Below, piece after piece: positions 3,610 to 37,158 of a stretch of DNA of 39,898 nucleotides. This DNA is from a virus, in the IMG/VR virus record IMGVR_UViG_3300025674_006908, positions 1 to 39,898 of that record; one strand, written 5' to 3'. Numbering within the stretch: position 1 is the first letter of the stretch; each line of letters opens with the position of its first letter. Below the pieces are notes generated by a model that saw nothing but the letters and a program-made list of their open reading frames with translations, was not told where the DNA came from and did not search any database. The translations under genes were made by a program, and so were the position numbers.

Positions 3610-4619
3610 TTTACGTAGTAGATTTAGAAAGTATTCCAACACGATACACATCAGAGTGGAAGTGGTTTGTTCCTCAATGGCTTCAAGAAAATGGACTTGA
3701 AGTAACTGTTATTGAAGGTGATCAAGAAATTCCAGAAATGACTACACCAGGTGCATTCTTGAACTTTGGTGGTACTAATATGTATAAAGCTACTCAAGTC
3801 CATCAAATATCTCGATTATTCGTTGAAGACAAAATACAAGACGGAGATCAGTTTGTATTTACAGATGCTTGGCATCCTGGTGTTATCAACATCAAGTATA
3901 TGTCTAAACTATTAGGTAAAGACATTACACTGCATGGTTTATGGCACGCAGGTTCATATGACCCAAATGATTTCTTAGGTAGATTGATTGGAAATGAAAA
4001 GTGGATACGTAATGCAGAAGCTTCTTTCTTCGAAGCATTTGATTATAATTGGGTAGCTACTTATTCTCACGAAAAACAAATACGTAACGTATTTCCAGAT
4101 GTAAAATTACATCATACAGGTTGGCCGATGTCATATACACGAGATTTGTTGGACCGAGCTAAGCAAAAGGAAAGAAAGCCTATAATAGTATTTCCGCATC
4201 GTATTGCTCCAGAAAAGCGTTTAGATTTATTTGAAGAATTATCTAAAAGACCTGAGTTATCTCATTACGAATTTAGAGTTCCTATGCAAGAAAATCTTAC
4301 AAAGGATCAATATCATAACCTGCTAGGAACAGCTCGTTTTGCTGTATCATTTGCAGAACAAGAAACATTGGGCATATCAATGTATGAAGCTGCTTGTGCA
4401 GGAGCTGTTCCAATTGTTCCAAAAAGACTTTCATATGTTGAAATGTATTATGACGGTTTCAAGACAGATGGCACGGTAGATGCAGTAGTCAATAAAATAT
4501 TAGAATTAGAATCTCATGATTTGCAGCGTGAAGCAAATGATCAAGCTAACTTGTTACATGAGCATTTCTTTTCAGCAACAAAATTACTTAATAAATTAAA
4601 GGAAATAAATGCAAGATAA
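3606..4619 (+). CDS. GT-B glycosyltransferase (GT4-like) within the 7-deazaguanine cassette
   Basis: A 337-residue protein with a two-domain GT-B layout. The C-terminal donor-binding half carries VFPHRIAPEKRLDLF (about 195-209) and EQETLGISMYEAACAGAVP (251-269), the E-x7-E-type signature of retaining group 1 (GT4-like) transferases. It lies between the QueD-like and TGT/DpdA-like genes, overlapping the first by ATGA and the second by 11 nt, and is 7 kb away from the main glycosyltransferase island. This suggests its acceptor is the modified nucleoside rather than a surface glycan. That acceptor assignment is inference; the glycosyltransferase family call is well supported. Confidence 0.85.
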   Translation: MIYVVDLESIPTRYTSEWKWFVPQWLQENGLEVTVIEGDQEIPEMTTPGAFLNFGGTNMYKATQVHQISRLFVEDKIQDGDQFVFTDAWHPGVINIKYMSKLLGKDITLHGLWHAGSYDPNDFLGRLIGNEKWIRNAEASFFEAFDYNWVATYSHEKQIRNVFPDVKLHHTGWPMSYTRDLLDRAKQKERKPIIVFPHRIAPEKRLDLFEELSKRPELSHYEFRVPMQENLTKDQYHNLLGTARFAVSFAEQETLGISMYEAACAGAVPIVPKRLSYVEMYYDGFKTDGTVDAVVNKILELESHDLQREANDQANLLHEHFFSATKLLNKLKEINAR

Positions 4620-5874
4620 AAGGTTTATTTATTATCCATCGCTTTCAGCAGGAAGCATGGTTTCTGCATTCAAAAAGGATTATAAATTTTCAGATGGTAC
4701 TCCCGTTAAATTTTATGACTCGAGATACCCAGCAGAATGGAGACATCCATACTTTTTGATTACTGCAGGTCATCATTACAAGAAAATGGATTTCCGCGAT
4801 CAGCTCGGATTAGAAAAAGATGTATTAGTATTTGGCGACTCTGGTGGGTATCAGATTGCAACGGGGGCATTGCCATATTCAAATGAATTGAGAGAAAAGA
4901 TCTTTCATTGGTTAGAAGCTAATTCAGATGTTGCAGCTAATTTGGATATTCCACCTAAGACTGTATACAAGAACAAGTTTCATGAATGTGCGGATATTTC
5001 ATTTGATAATTTTAAATGGTTTGAAAAGAATCAATCAGGAAAGACTGCATTCATCAATATGCTTCAAGGATCTAATTCTGAAGAATATACATGGTGGTAT
5101 CATAAATTTAAAGACTTTGATTTTAATGGATGGGCAATTGGTGGTCCACAAAAGTTAGTAGACTTCATGTTTGCGTTAGCTTTAATGCTTCAAGAAAAAG
5201 AGTTTGAAAAAGAACATAACAAGTACTTGCACTTGTTGGGTATTAGCAAGATATCAGATTTCTTTATTTTAGCAACATTGCAAAAACTAATGAACAAGTT
5301 AACTAATAATAGAATATATGTTAGCACAGATTCATCATCACCAGGACAATATCCAGTATATGGGACATATCTTCATTCTTGGAATTATAAAGTTCAATCA
5401 TTCAGTGAATTGTATTTTCCTAAGAATAATGAATATCGTAGACAAACACATATTACACAAGGTAAGACTGCATCTACTCAAGTTGATAAACATCAACATG
5501 TAGCTTGCGGATTAGATTGCCCGGCCTGTAAAGACTTTACATATGAATATTTAGAAGGCAAAACTGCAGAAGGCTTAGATCGTTATTCACAAGAAGCTAT
5601 GCCTCGAATGGTAGTTCATAATACACATTTGTATGTACGATTAGCAGAAGATATCAATAAGGTTGTTGATAGCCATGTAGAAATGCTAGAAACACTTATT
5701 CCAAGAGATTTGTATTCAGTTATTCTATCAATGCATGAAATGTTTGCAGATCCAGACGCAGCAATGCATATATATGAAAAATACAAAAAAGTATATAAAA
5801 AGTTTGGTGGTGATAGTATATCAACTATCAATGCTACATCATTCAATCAATTCTTTGGACAAAAGACAAATTAA
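4609..5874 (+). CDS. TGT-like transglycosylase, probable DpdA-type DNA 7-deazaguanine insertase
   Basis: A 421-residue tRNA-guanine-transglycosylase-fold protein. It shows GDSGGYQIA (76-84, cf. DSGGFQ of TGT), LDIPP (112-116), MLQGS (151-155), WAIGG (175-179), HLLGISK (208-214) and VSTDSSSP (238-245, with D241 the likely nucleophile). A zinc site follows: C300-x3-C304-x2-C307 plus a His in VVHNTHLY (335-342). TGT exchanges guanine for a 7-deazaguanine in tRNA; phage DpdA paralogues do this in DNA. Being in a phage replication block beside QueD-like and glycosyltransferase genes favours a DpdA-type role. QueC, QueE and FolE are not in this window, so precursors would come from the host or from genes elsewhere. 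A tRNA target cannot be excluded. Confidence 0.8.
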   Translation: MQDKRFIYYPSLSAGSMVSAFKKDYKFSDGTPVKFYDSRYPAEWRHPYFLITAGHHYKKMDFRDQLGLEKDVLVFGDSGGYQIATGALPYSNELREKIFHWLEANSDVAANLDIPPKTVYKNKFHECADISFDNFKWFEKNQSGKTAFINMLQGSNSEEYTWWYHKFKDFDFNGWAIGGPQKLVDFMFALALMLQEKEFEKEHNKYLHLLGISKISDFFILATLQKLMNKLTNNRIYVSTDSSSPGQYPVYGTYLHSWNYKVQSFSELYFPKNNEYRRQTHITQGKTASTQVDKHQHVACGLDCPACKDFTYEYLEGKTAEGLDRYSQEAMPRMVVHNTHLYVRLAEDINKVVDSHVEMLETLIPRDLYSVILSMHEMFADPDAAMHIYEKYKKVYKKFGGDSISTINATSFNQFFGQKTN

Positions 5875-28540: not shown

Positions 28541-29827
28541 ATGAACGCTCTGGATGGAATATCTATAAATTCCAAAATCTCCTTAATAGTTGCAGGTCTA
28601 ATTATGATGACCTTCTTTGCAGTACAAACCTGTATTGTATTTGGGATATGTGAACCAACCTTATTTCTTGCCAAATTTGGATGGGGATGTGTTGTATTCT
28701 TTATGCCACCATTCTTTAAAGTGGTACAAGAGTTTATTAAGAAAACTAAAATTAAAGAAGCTAAAATTAATACTCAACTAAACGCAATTGATAAATCTAA
28801 TTTAATAGTAACTCTAGGAATGGACACTACTATATTATCAGCTAATCAAAATTTTCTTAATGTAGTAGGTTATTCAGAAGACGAAATACTAAATAGCAAA
28901 CACCCTGATTTATGTACTACTGATTTTAAATCAAGTAAAGAATATAAAACTTTCTGGGAAAAATTACACAATGGAGAATTTGTTTCTGGGGAATTTGAAC
29001 GTGTAAATAAAAACGGAGAATCAATATGGTTATTTGGTACATATACCCCGTTACGGAATGCTAACGGAGTGTATGATAAAGTACTTAAAATAGCTGTTGA
29101 TATTACATCACAACATAAAGCTGAAGCAGAAGTTAAACAAAAAAGTATTTACTTAGAACACGCTGCAAAAATCATTAGACATGATATGCATAGTGGTATC
29201 AACACTTACATTCCAAGAGGATTAAATTCACTTCAAAGAAGGTTGGATGATGAACAAAAGAAAAAACTAAGAGCACCACTACAATTGTTAGGAGATGGTG
29301 TTAAACATGCTCAAAAAGTATATAGTGGAGTATATGAATTTACTAATTTAGTAAAAGAAAATGCTCAGATGTCGAAAACACCAAATAACATTAAACAAAT
29401 CTTAGATGAATATTTATCACTTACTGCATATAAAAATCAGATTCTTTTAGATGATAATTTACCTGTATCATTAGAAGTAAACGAACCACTTTTTTGTACT
29501 GCAATTGATAACTTAATTAGAAATGGATTAAAGTATAATGATTCACCAACAAAATGGGTTAAAATATATTTTGAAGGTAATTATAATAAAGGGAGCTTCA
29601 TTATTATCGAAGATAATGGTAGAGGTATGACTCAGAGTGAATTTGATGAGTTATCTAAACCATATATTCGTAAAGAAGGTCAAAAAGAGAAAGGAACGGG
29701 TCTTGGTTTAAATATTTGTAAAGCTATACTAAAGGAGCATGGTTTTGAACTTTCAATTGAAGAAATAGAAGATGACCCCGACACAGTTGAAATTGAAAGT
29801 GGAACTAAAATGAAAATAAAGATATGA
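28541..29827 (+). CDS. Membrane PAS-domain sensor histidine kinase
   Basis: A 428-residue complete sensor kinase. Two membrane helices lie near residues 12-36 and 40-62, with a short loop between. A PAS domain follows (about 83-192: NLIVTLGMDTTILSANQNFL, GYSEDEIL, WLFGTYTPLRN and the DITSQHKAEAE linker). The dimerisation helix carries the phospho-acceptor H214 in IIRHDMH, and the catalytic domain has the N box (N324, N328 in IDNLIRNGLKYN), G1 EDNGRGMT (357-364) and G2 KGTGLGLNI (384-392). All catalytic motifs are intact. It overlaps the response-regulator gene by ATGA. A small periplasmic loop suggests the ligand may be sensed by PAS or within the membrane. Confidence 0.92.
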   Translation: MNALDGISINSKISLIVAGLIMMTFFAVQTCIVFGICEPTLFLAKFGWGCVVFFMPPFFKVVQEFIKKTKIKEAKINTQLNAIDKSNLIVTLGMDTTILSANQNFLNVVGYSEDEILNSKHPDLCTTDFKSSKEYKTFWEKLHNGEFVSGEFERVNKNGESIWLFGTYTPLRNANGVYDKVLKIAVDITSQHKAEAEVKQKSIYLEHAAKIIRHDMHSGINTYIPRGLNSLQRRLDDEQKKKLRAPLQLLGDGVKHAQKVYSGVYEFTNLVKENAQMSKTPNNIKQILDEYLSLTAYKNQILLDDNLPVSLEVNEPLFCTAIDNLIRNGLKYNDSPTKWVKIYFEGNYNKGSFIIIEDNGRGMTQSEFDELSKPYIRKEGQKEKGTGLGLNICKAILKEHGFELSIEEIEDDPDTVEIESGTKMKIKI

Positions 29828-30261
29828 TTGATTCGTTAATGTTAGTAGATGATGAAAATTTGTTTCATCTTGTGTTTGAAGATGCGTGTTCTCTATTAGA
29901 TATTACTCTTGCATTAGAAGCATTGGATTCTTCTGATGAAGCAGATAAACTTTTTAAGAAATGGTTTACAGATGGTCCTGTAGATGAAAGACCAGATTGT
30001 GTATTTGTTGATTTAAATATAATTGGGTCTTCCTTTGATGGTATCGAATTAATCAGAAAAATAAATTATGATTATGGTAATGGGGTAGTTATCGGAATCA
30101 TTTCATCTTCTCAGGACGAACAAGAAATTGAAAAAGCTAGAGCAGTTGGAGCTCAATTTTGGATTATTAAATCAGATGATATAGAACCTAGATTAGAAGA
30201 ATTTAAAGCTGATTATGAAGGTTATAAAAATAGAACAGCACCTTTCAAAGTGTACAAGTAA
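29824..30261 (+). CDS. Single-domain response regulator
   Basis: A 145-residue receiver domain with the acidic pair D9-D10 (LMLVDDENL), phospho-acceptor D63 (CVFVDLNI), Ser at the Thr/Ser position (IISSS, about 93-96) and K116 (WIIKSDD). There is no DNA-binding or enzymatic output domain, as in CheY or Spo0F, so the signal must pass by protein contact. It is coupled by ATGA to the kinase, its likely partner. Ten nt after its stop begins a coiled-coil membrane protein that could be the effector. Confidence 0.9.
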   Translation: MIDSLMLVDDENLFHLVFEDACSLLDITLALEALDSSDEADKLFKKWFTDGPVDERPDCVFVDLNIIGSSFDGIELIRKINYDYGNGVVIGIISSSQDEQEIEKARAVGAQFWIIKSDDIEPRLEEFKADYEGYKNRTAPFKVYK

Positions 30262-35484: not shown

Positions 35485-35666
35485 AACTCAAAGAATTGAT
35501 ATATGGGTATCCAGAGTCTGGTGTTGTGAATAAAACAACCAAACAAGATTTTGACCGAGTACAATTCTACAAAGAATATTATGATAATCTAACTCCATCT
35601 GAATTTGATGTATATCAAAAAGATGAATTCATCATAATTAAAGTAAAGCCCAGAAAAGATGATTAA
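35481..35666 (+). CDS. Small protein of unknown function with MKLKEL start
   Basis: A 61-residue charged soluble protein (MKLKELIYGYPESGVV...). The start resembles the leader of several nearby virion-type proteins but lacks the clear (L/I)xE site. It is coupled to both neighbours (ATGA upstream, 8-nt overlap downstream). Function unknown. Confidence 0.7.
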   Translation: MKLKELIYGYPESGVVNKTTKQDFDRVQFYKEYYDNLTPSEFDVYQKDEFIIIKVKPRKDD

Positions 35667-36450
35667 ACTCAAAACTATATTGTTTGAACAATCACAATCT
35701 ATCCCAGAGACTATAGAACAAATTTGGGACGGAATTGTGTTGCCGTACGGGGTTCGCGATACTGTTTCTAATGGAGTAGTTCGTCAAATACAAACAGCAT
35801 TAGTTAAGAAGCTTGAACAAATGGGCAAGCCAACATTTAAACCAAATGGCTCATTCGGCACAACTACAGCAAATGGTATTGCAACAGTAATGGGCATTAA
35901 ATTGTCTAATCCGAAAACTCTTACAATTGGTCCAAATACGTTAACTGCATTGGGATTCGAACGACCCGACAGCGTAACAGATGAAGTTTTAATTATAGCT
36001 GCGGTATTAGCTGGTGAAGCTAAAATTACGGACGAAACGGCTATTCGTTCTGTCGGTAACGCAATAATTAATAGATCAATTGCAAAAAATAAAACAATAC
36101 TGCAAACAGTAACGGGTAAGGAAGCCGGCGGAGCTTATACATTCTCAGTATGGTATGATGCACCGCGTGGAGAATCATTAATTAACCGTGTTAAGCAATT
36201 TATTAAAGAACGTAATTTTAAAGGAAATACATCATTACCATACTGGAACAATGTGATTAAAATTGCTAAACAAGTTGTATCACGAACATTAAAAGATAAT
36301 ACAAATGGATCAACTCATTACTTTACTGGTGCAAGACCATATTGGGCAGATACAAAGAAAAATCCTAAATACAAAGTATTAGCATCTATTGGTGGTCATG
36401 AATTTGGAATAACTGGTACGGGGTGGGATACTGCACCAGTAAAAAGATAA
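35659..36450 (+). CDS. SleB-like cell wall hydrolase with peptidoglycan-binding-like domain
   Basis: A 263-residue protein. A short leader MIKLKTILFEQ is followed by a peptidoglycan-binding-like repeat (about 40-98: VRQIQTALVKKLEQMGK...SFGTTTANGIATVMG). A SleB/CwlJ-type hydrolase domain then contains VLAGEAKITDETAIRSVGN (117-135; E120 is the likely catalytic Glu) and a late GSTHYFTGARPYW loop. It probably cleaves peptidoglycan as a virion-borne or late lytic enzyme. The leader fits packaging into the head or tail, but this is inference. A promoter directly follows its stop. Confidence 0.82.
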   Translation: MIKLKTILFEQSQSIPETIEQIWDGIVLPYGVRDTVSNGVVRQIQTALVKKLEQMGKPTFKPNGSFGTTTANGIATVMGIKLSNPKTLTIGPNTLTALGFERPDSVTDEVLIIAAVLAGEAKITDETAIRSVGNAIINRSIAKNKTILQTVTGKEAGGAYTFSVWYDAPRGESLINRVKQFIKERNFKGNTSLPYWNNVIKIAKQVVSRTLKDNTNGSTHYFTGARPYWADTKKNPKYKVLASIGGHEFGITGTGWDTAPVKR

Positions 36451-36485: not shown

Positions 36486-36689
36486 ATGATAACGGGGTTT
36501 GGAATGTATGTAAATCATTTAGATAAATTTCTCAAAGTTGTGTTTAGCAATACAGAGGTTTGGCAATGGCCCACATCATGGTCAGAACTTGATAAACTTA
36601 AGTTTATTGATGAAGCATTAGAATATTTAGAAAAACAAGAAATGTACGAAGAATGCAAAAAGTTATATGAGCTCAAAAAGACGATCTAA
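36486..36689 (+). CDS. Small protein of unknown function
   Basis: A 67-residue helical protein, aromatic-rich at the N-terminus and ending in a KKLYELKKTI helix. It is the first gene after a leaderless promoter and overlaps the ClpS-like gene by 23 nt, so the two are presumably co-translated. No family recognised. Confidence 0.72.
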   Translation: MITGFGMYVNHLDKFLKVVFSNTEVWQWPTSWSELDKLKFIDEALEYLEKQEMYEECKKLYELKKTI

Positions 36690-36921
36690 GTATCAATTGG
36701 TTTTAAAAAATGATGACAAGAATTCATTTCAACACGTAATTACTTGCTTAATGGAAATTTGTAATCATAACTATTATCAGGCAGGTCAATGTGCAAACAT
36801 AGTTCATAATAATGGACAATGTTGTGTGTATGTTGGGTGGAAAGATGAAGTAGAAGAAGTATATGAGTTGATGCAGGCAGAAGGGTTGAAATTAGAACTT
36901 GTAAAGCATACGAGTCGTTAA
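36667..36921 (+). CDS. ClpS-like protease adaptor
   Basis: An 84-residue protein with the ClpS fold signature: LVLKNDDKNSFQHVITCLME (11-30) and QCANIVHNNGQCCVYVG (41-57). The residues that hold the N-degron amino group in bacterial ClpS are conserved (N15, D16 and H47). F21 aligns with the E. coli gatekeeper Met40. The HVI..L, QA..C..IVH and GQC patterns are closest to Bacteroidota-type ClpS as I know it. It likely directs N-degron substrates to, or away from, host ClpAP. The N-terminal extension that triggers delivery to ClpA is very short here (about 8 residues), so it could act as an inhibitor. Confidence 0.75.
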   Translation: MSSKRRSKYQLVLKNDDKNSFQHVITCLMEICNHNYYQAGQCANIVHNNGQCCVYVGWKDEVEEVYELMQAEGLKLELVKHTSR

Positions 36922-36978: not shown

Positions 36979-37158
36979 ATGTTTAAAGTTATAGCAAATA
37001 TTAGAATAGGGTTGCTTCATGCAACATTTCATCGCAATATGAGACGTGCAACAGCTGCACGAAAGACTCAAGATATTGCAAAATTCAAACGTTATATATA
37101 TGCAGCAGAAGATGCATGGAGAAAATTAGTTTTAATCAAAGAAAAATACAAATTATAA
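36979..37158 (+). CDS. 59-residue basic small protein
   Basis: ATG at 36979, stop at 37158, three nt before the next gene. The product is strongly basic and helical (NMRRATAARKTQDIAKFKRY...). Short, Lys/Arg-rich helices of this kind may bind nucleic acid or other proteins. It fills the 240-nt space between the ClpS-like gene and the next ORF. Upstream, 36922-36978 holds no clear element. Confidence 0.58.
   Translation: MFKVIANIRIGLLHATFHRNMRRATAARKTQDIAKFKRYIYAAEDAWRKLVLIKEKYKL

Follow-up and report, generated by a model that had tools for sequence, protein, structure and literature searches.

Genes at the locus

The window, by which we mean the whole 39,898-nucleotide stretch of viral record IMGVR_UViG_3300025674_006908 that was analyzed, contains on its plus strand an ATG-started open reading frame of 84 codons with exact coordinates 36667-36921. 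It belongs to a four-gene cassette, X-clpS-Y-Z, whose parts and upstream neighbor are as follows.

35659-36450, plus strand: immediate upstream neighbor of the cassette, cell-wall-hydrolase-like (Pfam Hydrolase_2 at 22.1 bits, under the cut-off of 27)
36486-36689, plus strand: gene X, 67 residues (or 61 if translated, like its homologs, from the ATG at position 36504), preceding clpS in each of the 88 distinct cassettes
36667-36689, plus strand: 23-nt overlap of X and clpS, in which the end of X and the start of clpS use different reading frames
36667-36921, plus strand: clpS, a ClpS-family protein of 84 residues by Pfam PF02617, AlphaFold2, PDB fold matches, and dN/dS
36979-37158, plus strand: gene Y, 59 residues, with the invariant motif LHAxxHRN...YxAEDAW, downstream of clpS in every cassette uncut by a contig end
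37162-37545, plus strand: gene Z, 127 residues, with motifs SPKDR..MDKF and WPLxDQxxYW, the last gene of the cassette

The Pfam ClpS model (PF02617; cut-off 23) matched the 84-residue product with 59.7 bits and an E-value of 2.5e-16, while its best score against the NCBIfam ClpS equivalogs, 45.2 bits, did not reach the cut-off of 117; by sequence, the protein is a ClpS homolog that falls short of a curated functional equivalent. Its AlphaFold2 model (pLDDT 90.1) has the secondary-structure order E-a-a-E-a-E, and when the PDB was searched with this model, all 38 of the 38 best matches were ClpS, with TM-scores of up to 0.88 by query. The dN/dS ratio of clpS, 0.13-0.26 in well-diverged comparisons, indicates purifying selection and, together with the retention of the locus in 88 distinct cassettes, argues that clpS is a real gene. 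Sequence and model together identify the product as a genuine ClpS-family protein with a predicted ClpS fold. The original prediction of a phage-encoded ClpS-like protein at these positions is therefore upheld, on a viral record and with a clear Pfam score, and the fold search that it had named as a check returned nothing but ClpS among the best matches.

The cassette is conserved as a unit

The X-clpS-Y-Z arrangement was found at 236 loci of the viral collection, representing 88 distinct sequences, with order and strand constant throughout; all incomplete copies run into contig ends. Three seed searches for the cassette began from X or Z rather than ClpS, and among the 88 distinct cassettes neither X nor Z occurred without ClpS, contig ends excepted. 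X and clpS overlap by 20-59 nt in every cassette measured, mostly by 23-32 nt, which suggests that their translation is coupled. Gene Z, which had no significant match in Pfam or PHROG, is itself under purifying selection (dN/dS 0.12-0.18 in distant comparisons). Because the gene directly upstream of the cassette differs between phages, the linkage of the four genes is more than general synteny. Promoters and terminators around the cassette were no more frequent than in shuffled sequences, and an Rfam search of the same region returned no match. Taken by itself, the ClpS sequence argues less strongly for a dedicated function than does this conserved four-gene cassette with its overlapping partner X, neither of which the original prediction had noted.

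The upstream flank (35659-36450 in the window, and its counterparts in L002, L019, L022, and L081) holds different lysis- or cell-wall-type genes, among them hydrolase, lysozyme-like, and LysM-like genes, and is a possible exchange hot spot. The proximity of such genes would accord with a role in virion assembly or structure, in which the ClpS fold would be used for binding and have no connection with Clp proteolysis; we consider this very improbable, as both the fold and the pocket residues described below are kept under purifying selection.

Pocket residues and the gatekeeper position

We aligned the window protein to E. coli ClpS, the reference sequence of which was confirmed against PDB chains. 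Residues N15, D16, and H47 correspond to N34, D35, and H66 of the E. coli protein, so that the amino-group pocket is kept as predicted, and F21 at the gatekeeper position corresponds to M40. Two host sets were used for comparison: a first set of 80 ClpS genes from a pattern scan, in which the pattern itself demanded N, D, and F, and a second set drawn evenly from the same phylum, with ClpS present in 146 of the 148 genomes drawn. From the even draw, 70 host ClpS were read out (the 30 best-scoring and 40 spread over the remainder). Phe occupies the gatekeeper position in 68 of these 70, position 34 is Asn in 57 and Asp in 13, and position 66 is His in 67 and Asp in 3. This sample shows the Phe and the pocket of the window protein to be the normal state of the phylum; the earlier description of Phe as a distinctive gatekeeper does not hold, and a change of specificity through this residue was rejected.

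The replacement of N34 by Asp was seen in 25 of 82 cassette ClpS versus 13 of 70 phylum ClpS, and pocket variation in the cassette family is thus, as judged from the sequences, not clearly greater than in the phylum. An eroded pocket in cassette ClpS had appeared strong against the first, N/D/F-selected host set and was dropped after the even draw. A remodeled docking face (an aromatic residue in place of Lys at E. coli position 76) was likewise dropped, since hosts also vary at this position. In six cassette ClpS (L210, L228, L229, L289, L324, and L335) the pocket His is replaced by Asp or Asn, as it is in 3 of the 70 hosts. At the site equal to window G57 (E. coli position 78), Asp is present in 71 of 82 cassette ClpS versus none of the 70 hosts, 63 of which have Gly; the window subclade has kept Gly. 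The ClpA-docking helix of E. coli ClpS starts just after this site (PMC12493166).

A pocket in this state bears on the main rival to the reading that we prefer. According to this rival, the protein is a functional extra ClpS that delivers ordinary N-degron substrates to host ClpCP and boosts the pathway, its short N-terminal tail being a harmless product of overlap and compaction. The N/D/H pocket and the Phe at the gatekeeper position, both as in host ClpS, fit this account, as does the fact that ClpS with tails as long as those of hosts are encoded by jumbo phages and by other phages. On the other side, the lineage of the cassette split off early and has retained partner genes of its own, and overall we regard an ordinary extra ClpS as rather unlikely.

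The N-terminal extension

Ahead of the pocket Asn, the window ClpS has 14 residues. The clpS frame is open for only 12 codons further upstream and contains no ATG, GTG, or TTG there, and the same start is common to all six close relatives; the lack of an upstream start extends to every member of the window's subclade. The long N-terminal extension of canonical, delivery-competent ClpS is therefore absent in the window, and the very short extension noted originally is confirmed. In every sampled host ClpS, the pocket Asn is preceded by 24 or more residues; genes limited to starts as short as the window's number none of the 70 hosts versus 22 of the 82 cassette ClpS, including the whole subclade of the window. 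In the other cassette clpS genes, an ATG is mostly found at 16-20 codons and further ATGs lie upstream within gene X, so that from sequence the short tail is certain only in those 22, and the others could carry a tail of host length.

In E. coli ClpAPS, ClpA draws the ClpS tail into its channel; this pulling drives hand-over, and delivery stops when the tail is blocked (PMC9663308). Delivery driven in this way counts against an ordinary extra ClpS. It also lends weight to a second alternative, a pure anti-adaptor that only occupies ClpC or sequesters N-degrons, with X, Y, and Z as unrelated chance neighbors: the tail is lost, and docking without a degron-like tail would be expected to block rather than deliver (our extrapolation from PMC9663308). 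Chance neighbors would hardly account for the constancy of X and Z beside ClpS while the gene upstream changes, or for an X-clpS overlap that is always kept, and we judge this alternative improbable. The NCBIfam collection includes a ClpS model of only 77 residues (NF000668), which indicates that there are short members of the family and that these may be functional; the availability of such short curated models favors an extra ClpS, and because of it the short tail alone is no proof of lost delivery.

A possible UVR-like motif in the partner gene X

The X proteins have 61-67 residues and are helical by prediction (model pLDDT 75). Their C-terminal half, which reads YEQCAIIRDVxKTI in most relatives, resembles a UVR motif. 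When we compared X by hhalign with the UVR motifs of eight host-type genomes, the probability was 69-77% and the score 27.5, versus 14.5 for the best shuffled sequence. With 1,500 real protein segments as background, 8 of the 22 motifs from hosts were surpassed in their score with X by one segment at most, a comparison for which UVR had been picked after inspection. These eight motifs belong to the ClpC middle domain and to a small host protein, UVR-bearing at its C terminus, which we take to be of the BFN/DUF151 type; those of other long host proteins (UvrB/UvrC size) were mostly not distinguished.

The Pfam UVR model (PF02151) gave no match in X at E-values of up to 10, whether the genome was searched or 21 and 48 members were run through hmmscan, and an open profile search of the host genomes with X retrieved no UVR proteins. 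On these results, X is not supported as a Pfam UVR protein. X also had no fold match in the PDB and no match to the YccV domain expected of a ClpF-like co-adaptor in its 61-67 residues. The UVR likeness, seen at the level of sequence, is a lead. It is of interest because the host ClpC bears a UVR motif and because the chloroplast UVR protein ClpF pairs with ClpS1 on ClpC (PMC7966870); UVR proteins are trapped on chloroplast ClpC1 as well (PMC8889267).

A more specific proposal built on this lead is a two-part Clp adaptor, in which a tailless ClpS would act with a UVR-like X, the latter replacing the tail as the contact with UVR-bearing ClpC and thereby reprogramming host ClpCP. Such an arrangement, which our analysis makes conceivable and which we hold only tentatively, would be a viral parallel of the chloroplast ClpF-ClpS1 pair.

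Phage lineage, descent of ClpS, and probable host

The window encodes a T4-type DNA polymerase, processivity factor, and clamp loader, and the T4 capsid protein gp23 is present on six of the larger cassette-bearing contigs; by these gene contents, the cassette phages are T4-like. The window phage is T4-like and lytic, and it most likely infects Bacteroidota. Among named phages, X and Z had no match and cassette ClpS had distant hits only, the only strong ones being to three uncultured genomes of ~640 kb. The closest named DNA polymerase by far, with 46% identity over its full length, is that of Microcystis phage Mel-JY01 (PP395634.1), in which neither ClpS nor X was matched.

In a tree built from 73 columns, the deep order of which is weak, cassette ClpS form a single clade apart from host ClpS (support 98/81; 100% of bootstrap trees). 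Phage ClpS from outside the cassette have longer tails and are placed at three or more points of the tree, either within host sequences or next to them; they include those of the three ~640-kb genomes (L010, L011, and L012), each of which encodes two to three ClpP and no Clp N-domain ATPase.

The best-matching cellular ClpS from the pattern scan were all from Bacteroidota, and it is from these matches alone that we infer the host. Neither a Clp N-domain ATPase (Clp_N) nor a Leu/Phe transferase (Aat) was found in 11 phage records, all of them partial or unannotated, which makes use of the host machine by the phage protein most likely. Eight host-type genomes contain a UVR-bearing ClpC and Aat along with, by size, ClpB. 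The original prediction had named ClpAP as the target; the presumed hosts carry ClpC rather than ClpA, which points instead to ClpCP.

Elsewhere in the window, 28541-30261 encodes a PAS-domain histidine-kinase-like protein (with HATPase domain) and, directly after it, a response-regulator-like protein with an overlapping start, a pair that is unusual cargo for a phage. Positions 3606-26383 hold a run of many glycosyltransferase-like, methyltransferase-like, and PIG-L deacetylase genes, possibly a glycan or DNA-modification island. Within it, 4609-5874 encodes a queuine tRNA-ribosyltransferase-like protein, just under the Pfam cut-off, that may belong to a pathway of phage DNA or tRNA base modification.

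Proposed function

We propose that the phage makes a ClpS-type adaptor that acts with X on host ClpC and that competes with or retargets host adaptors rather than duplicating host ClpS, a reading to which we give an even chance. ClpS and the small helical X would be made by overlapping, probably coupled translation and would jointly act on the ClpC unfoldase of the host. The phage ClpS would retain docking on the Clp N-domain through its core, which could also bind ligands with N-degrons; lacking the long tail for the ClpA pore, the protein would not simply duplicate host ClpS. By filling the adaptor site, it would compete there with the adaptors of the host, ClpS among them; alternatively, aided by X, it would bring ClpCP a changed set of targets in the course of infection. 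We infer the binding to ClpC and to X, the blocking or retargeting effect, and the host. Redirection or blocking of N-degron turnover, as originally suggested, is plausible on the sequence features, and modulation of host ClpCP by a competing or retargeting adaptor is more likely than a copy of host ClpS.

This reading is supported by the ClpS family and fold, the intact pocket, the short tail with its fixed start, the strict cassette, the overlap with X, purifying selection, and the single clade; by the lack of Clp_N and Aat in phages of T4-like context whose host-type genomes have ClpC and Aat; and by the precedent of SPO1 Gp53, which is adaptor-like on ClpCP and competes with MecA (PMC6873191). 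Counting against it are the lack of a Pfam UVR or PDB match for X, a short tail that is certain in only part of the family, and the 77-residue NF000668 model. The intact pocket also fits ordinary N-degron delivery, and its variation is not clearly above that of the phylum.

Comparison with known systems

Only a few cases of phage control over host AAA+ proteases have been worked out, that of SPO1 Gp53 and ClpC being one of them. A conserved, uncultivated lineage with a tail-less ClpS and a fixed partner offers a natural way of asking what purpose the ClpS tail serves and if another protein can stand in for it, and it would also offer a small, testable tool for redirecting ClpCP in Bacteroidota.

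The window protein shares with host ClpS of Bacteroidota (Flavobacteriales-type) the family, the fold, the N/D/H pocket, the Phe at the gatekeeper position, and the C...H...QA.QC signature; it differs in the length ahead of the pocket Asn and in the separate clade of cassette ClpS. Phage ClpS have been noted earlier in jumbo phages, among them AMM43882.1 (PMC7824862) and gp708 of Agrobacterium phage Atu_ph07 (PMC6102473), and the authors suggested that they direct targets to host ClpAP (PMC7824862, PMC6102473). Those were noted as single genes, in contrast to the cassette described here, and the ClpS of the three ~640-kb genomes differ in having longer N-termini, in lying outside the cassette clade, and in sharing their genomes with ClpP.

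The chloroplast ClpF-ClpS1 binary adaptor likewise combines a ClpS with a UVR-motif protein on a ClpC that itself bears UVR (PMC7966870), whereas X, a putative partner, has only a UVR-like helical segment, with neither a YccV domain nor a Pfam UVR match. Similar in proposed role is SPO1 Gp53, a phage protein that binds ClpC of Bacillus subtilis, competes with host adaptors, and modulates ClpCP (PMC6873191). Gp53 is a protein of ~25 kDa that shares very little sequence with host adaptors (PMC6873191), whereas the window protein is a true ClpS homolog with a conserved partner. What is new here is that an uncultivated, T4-like lineage has ClpS in a tail-less form, encoded in a strict cassette together with an overlapping partner.
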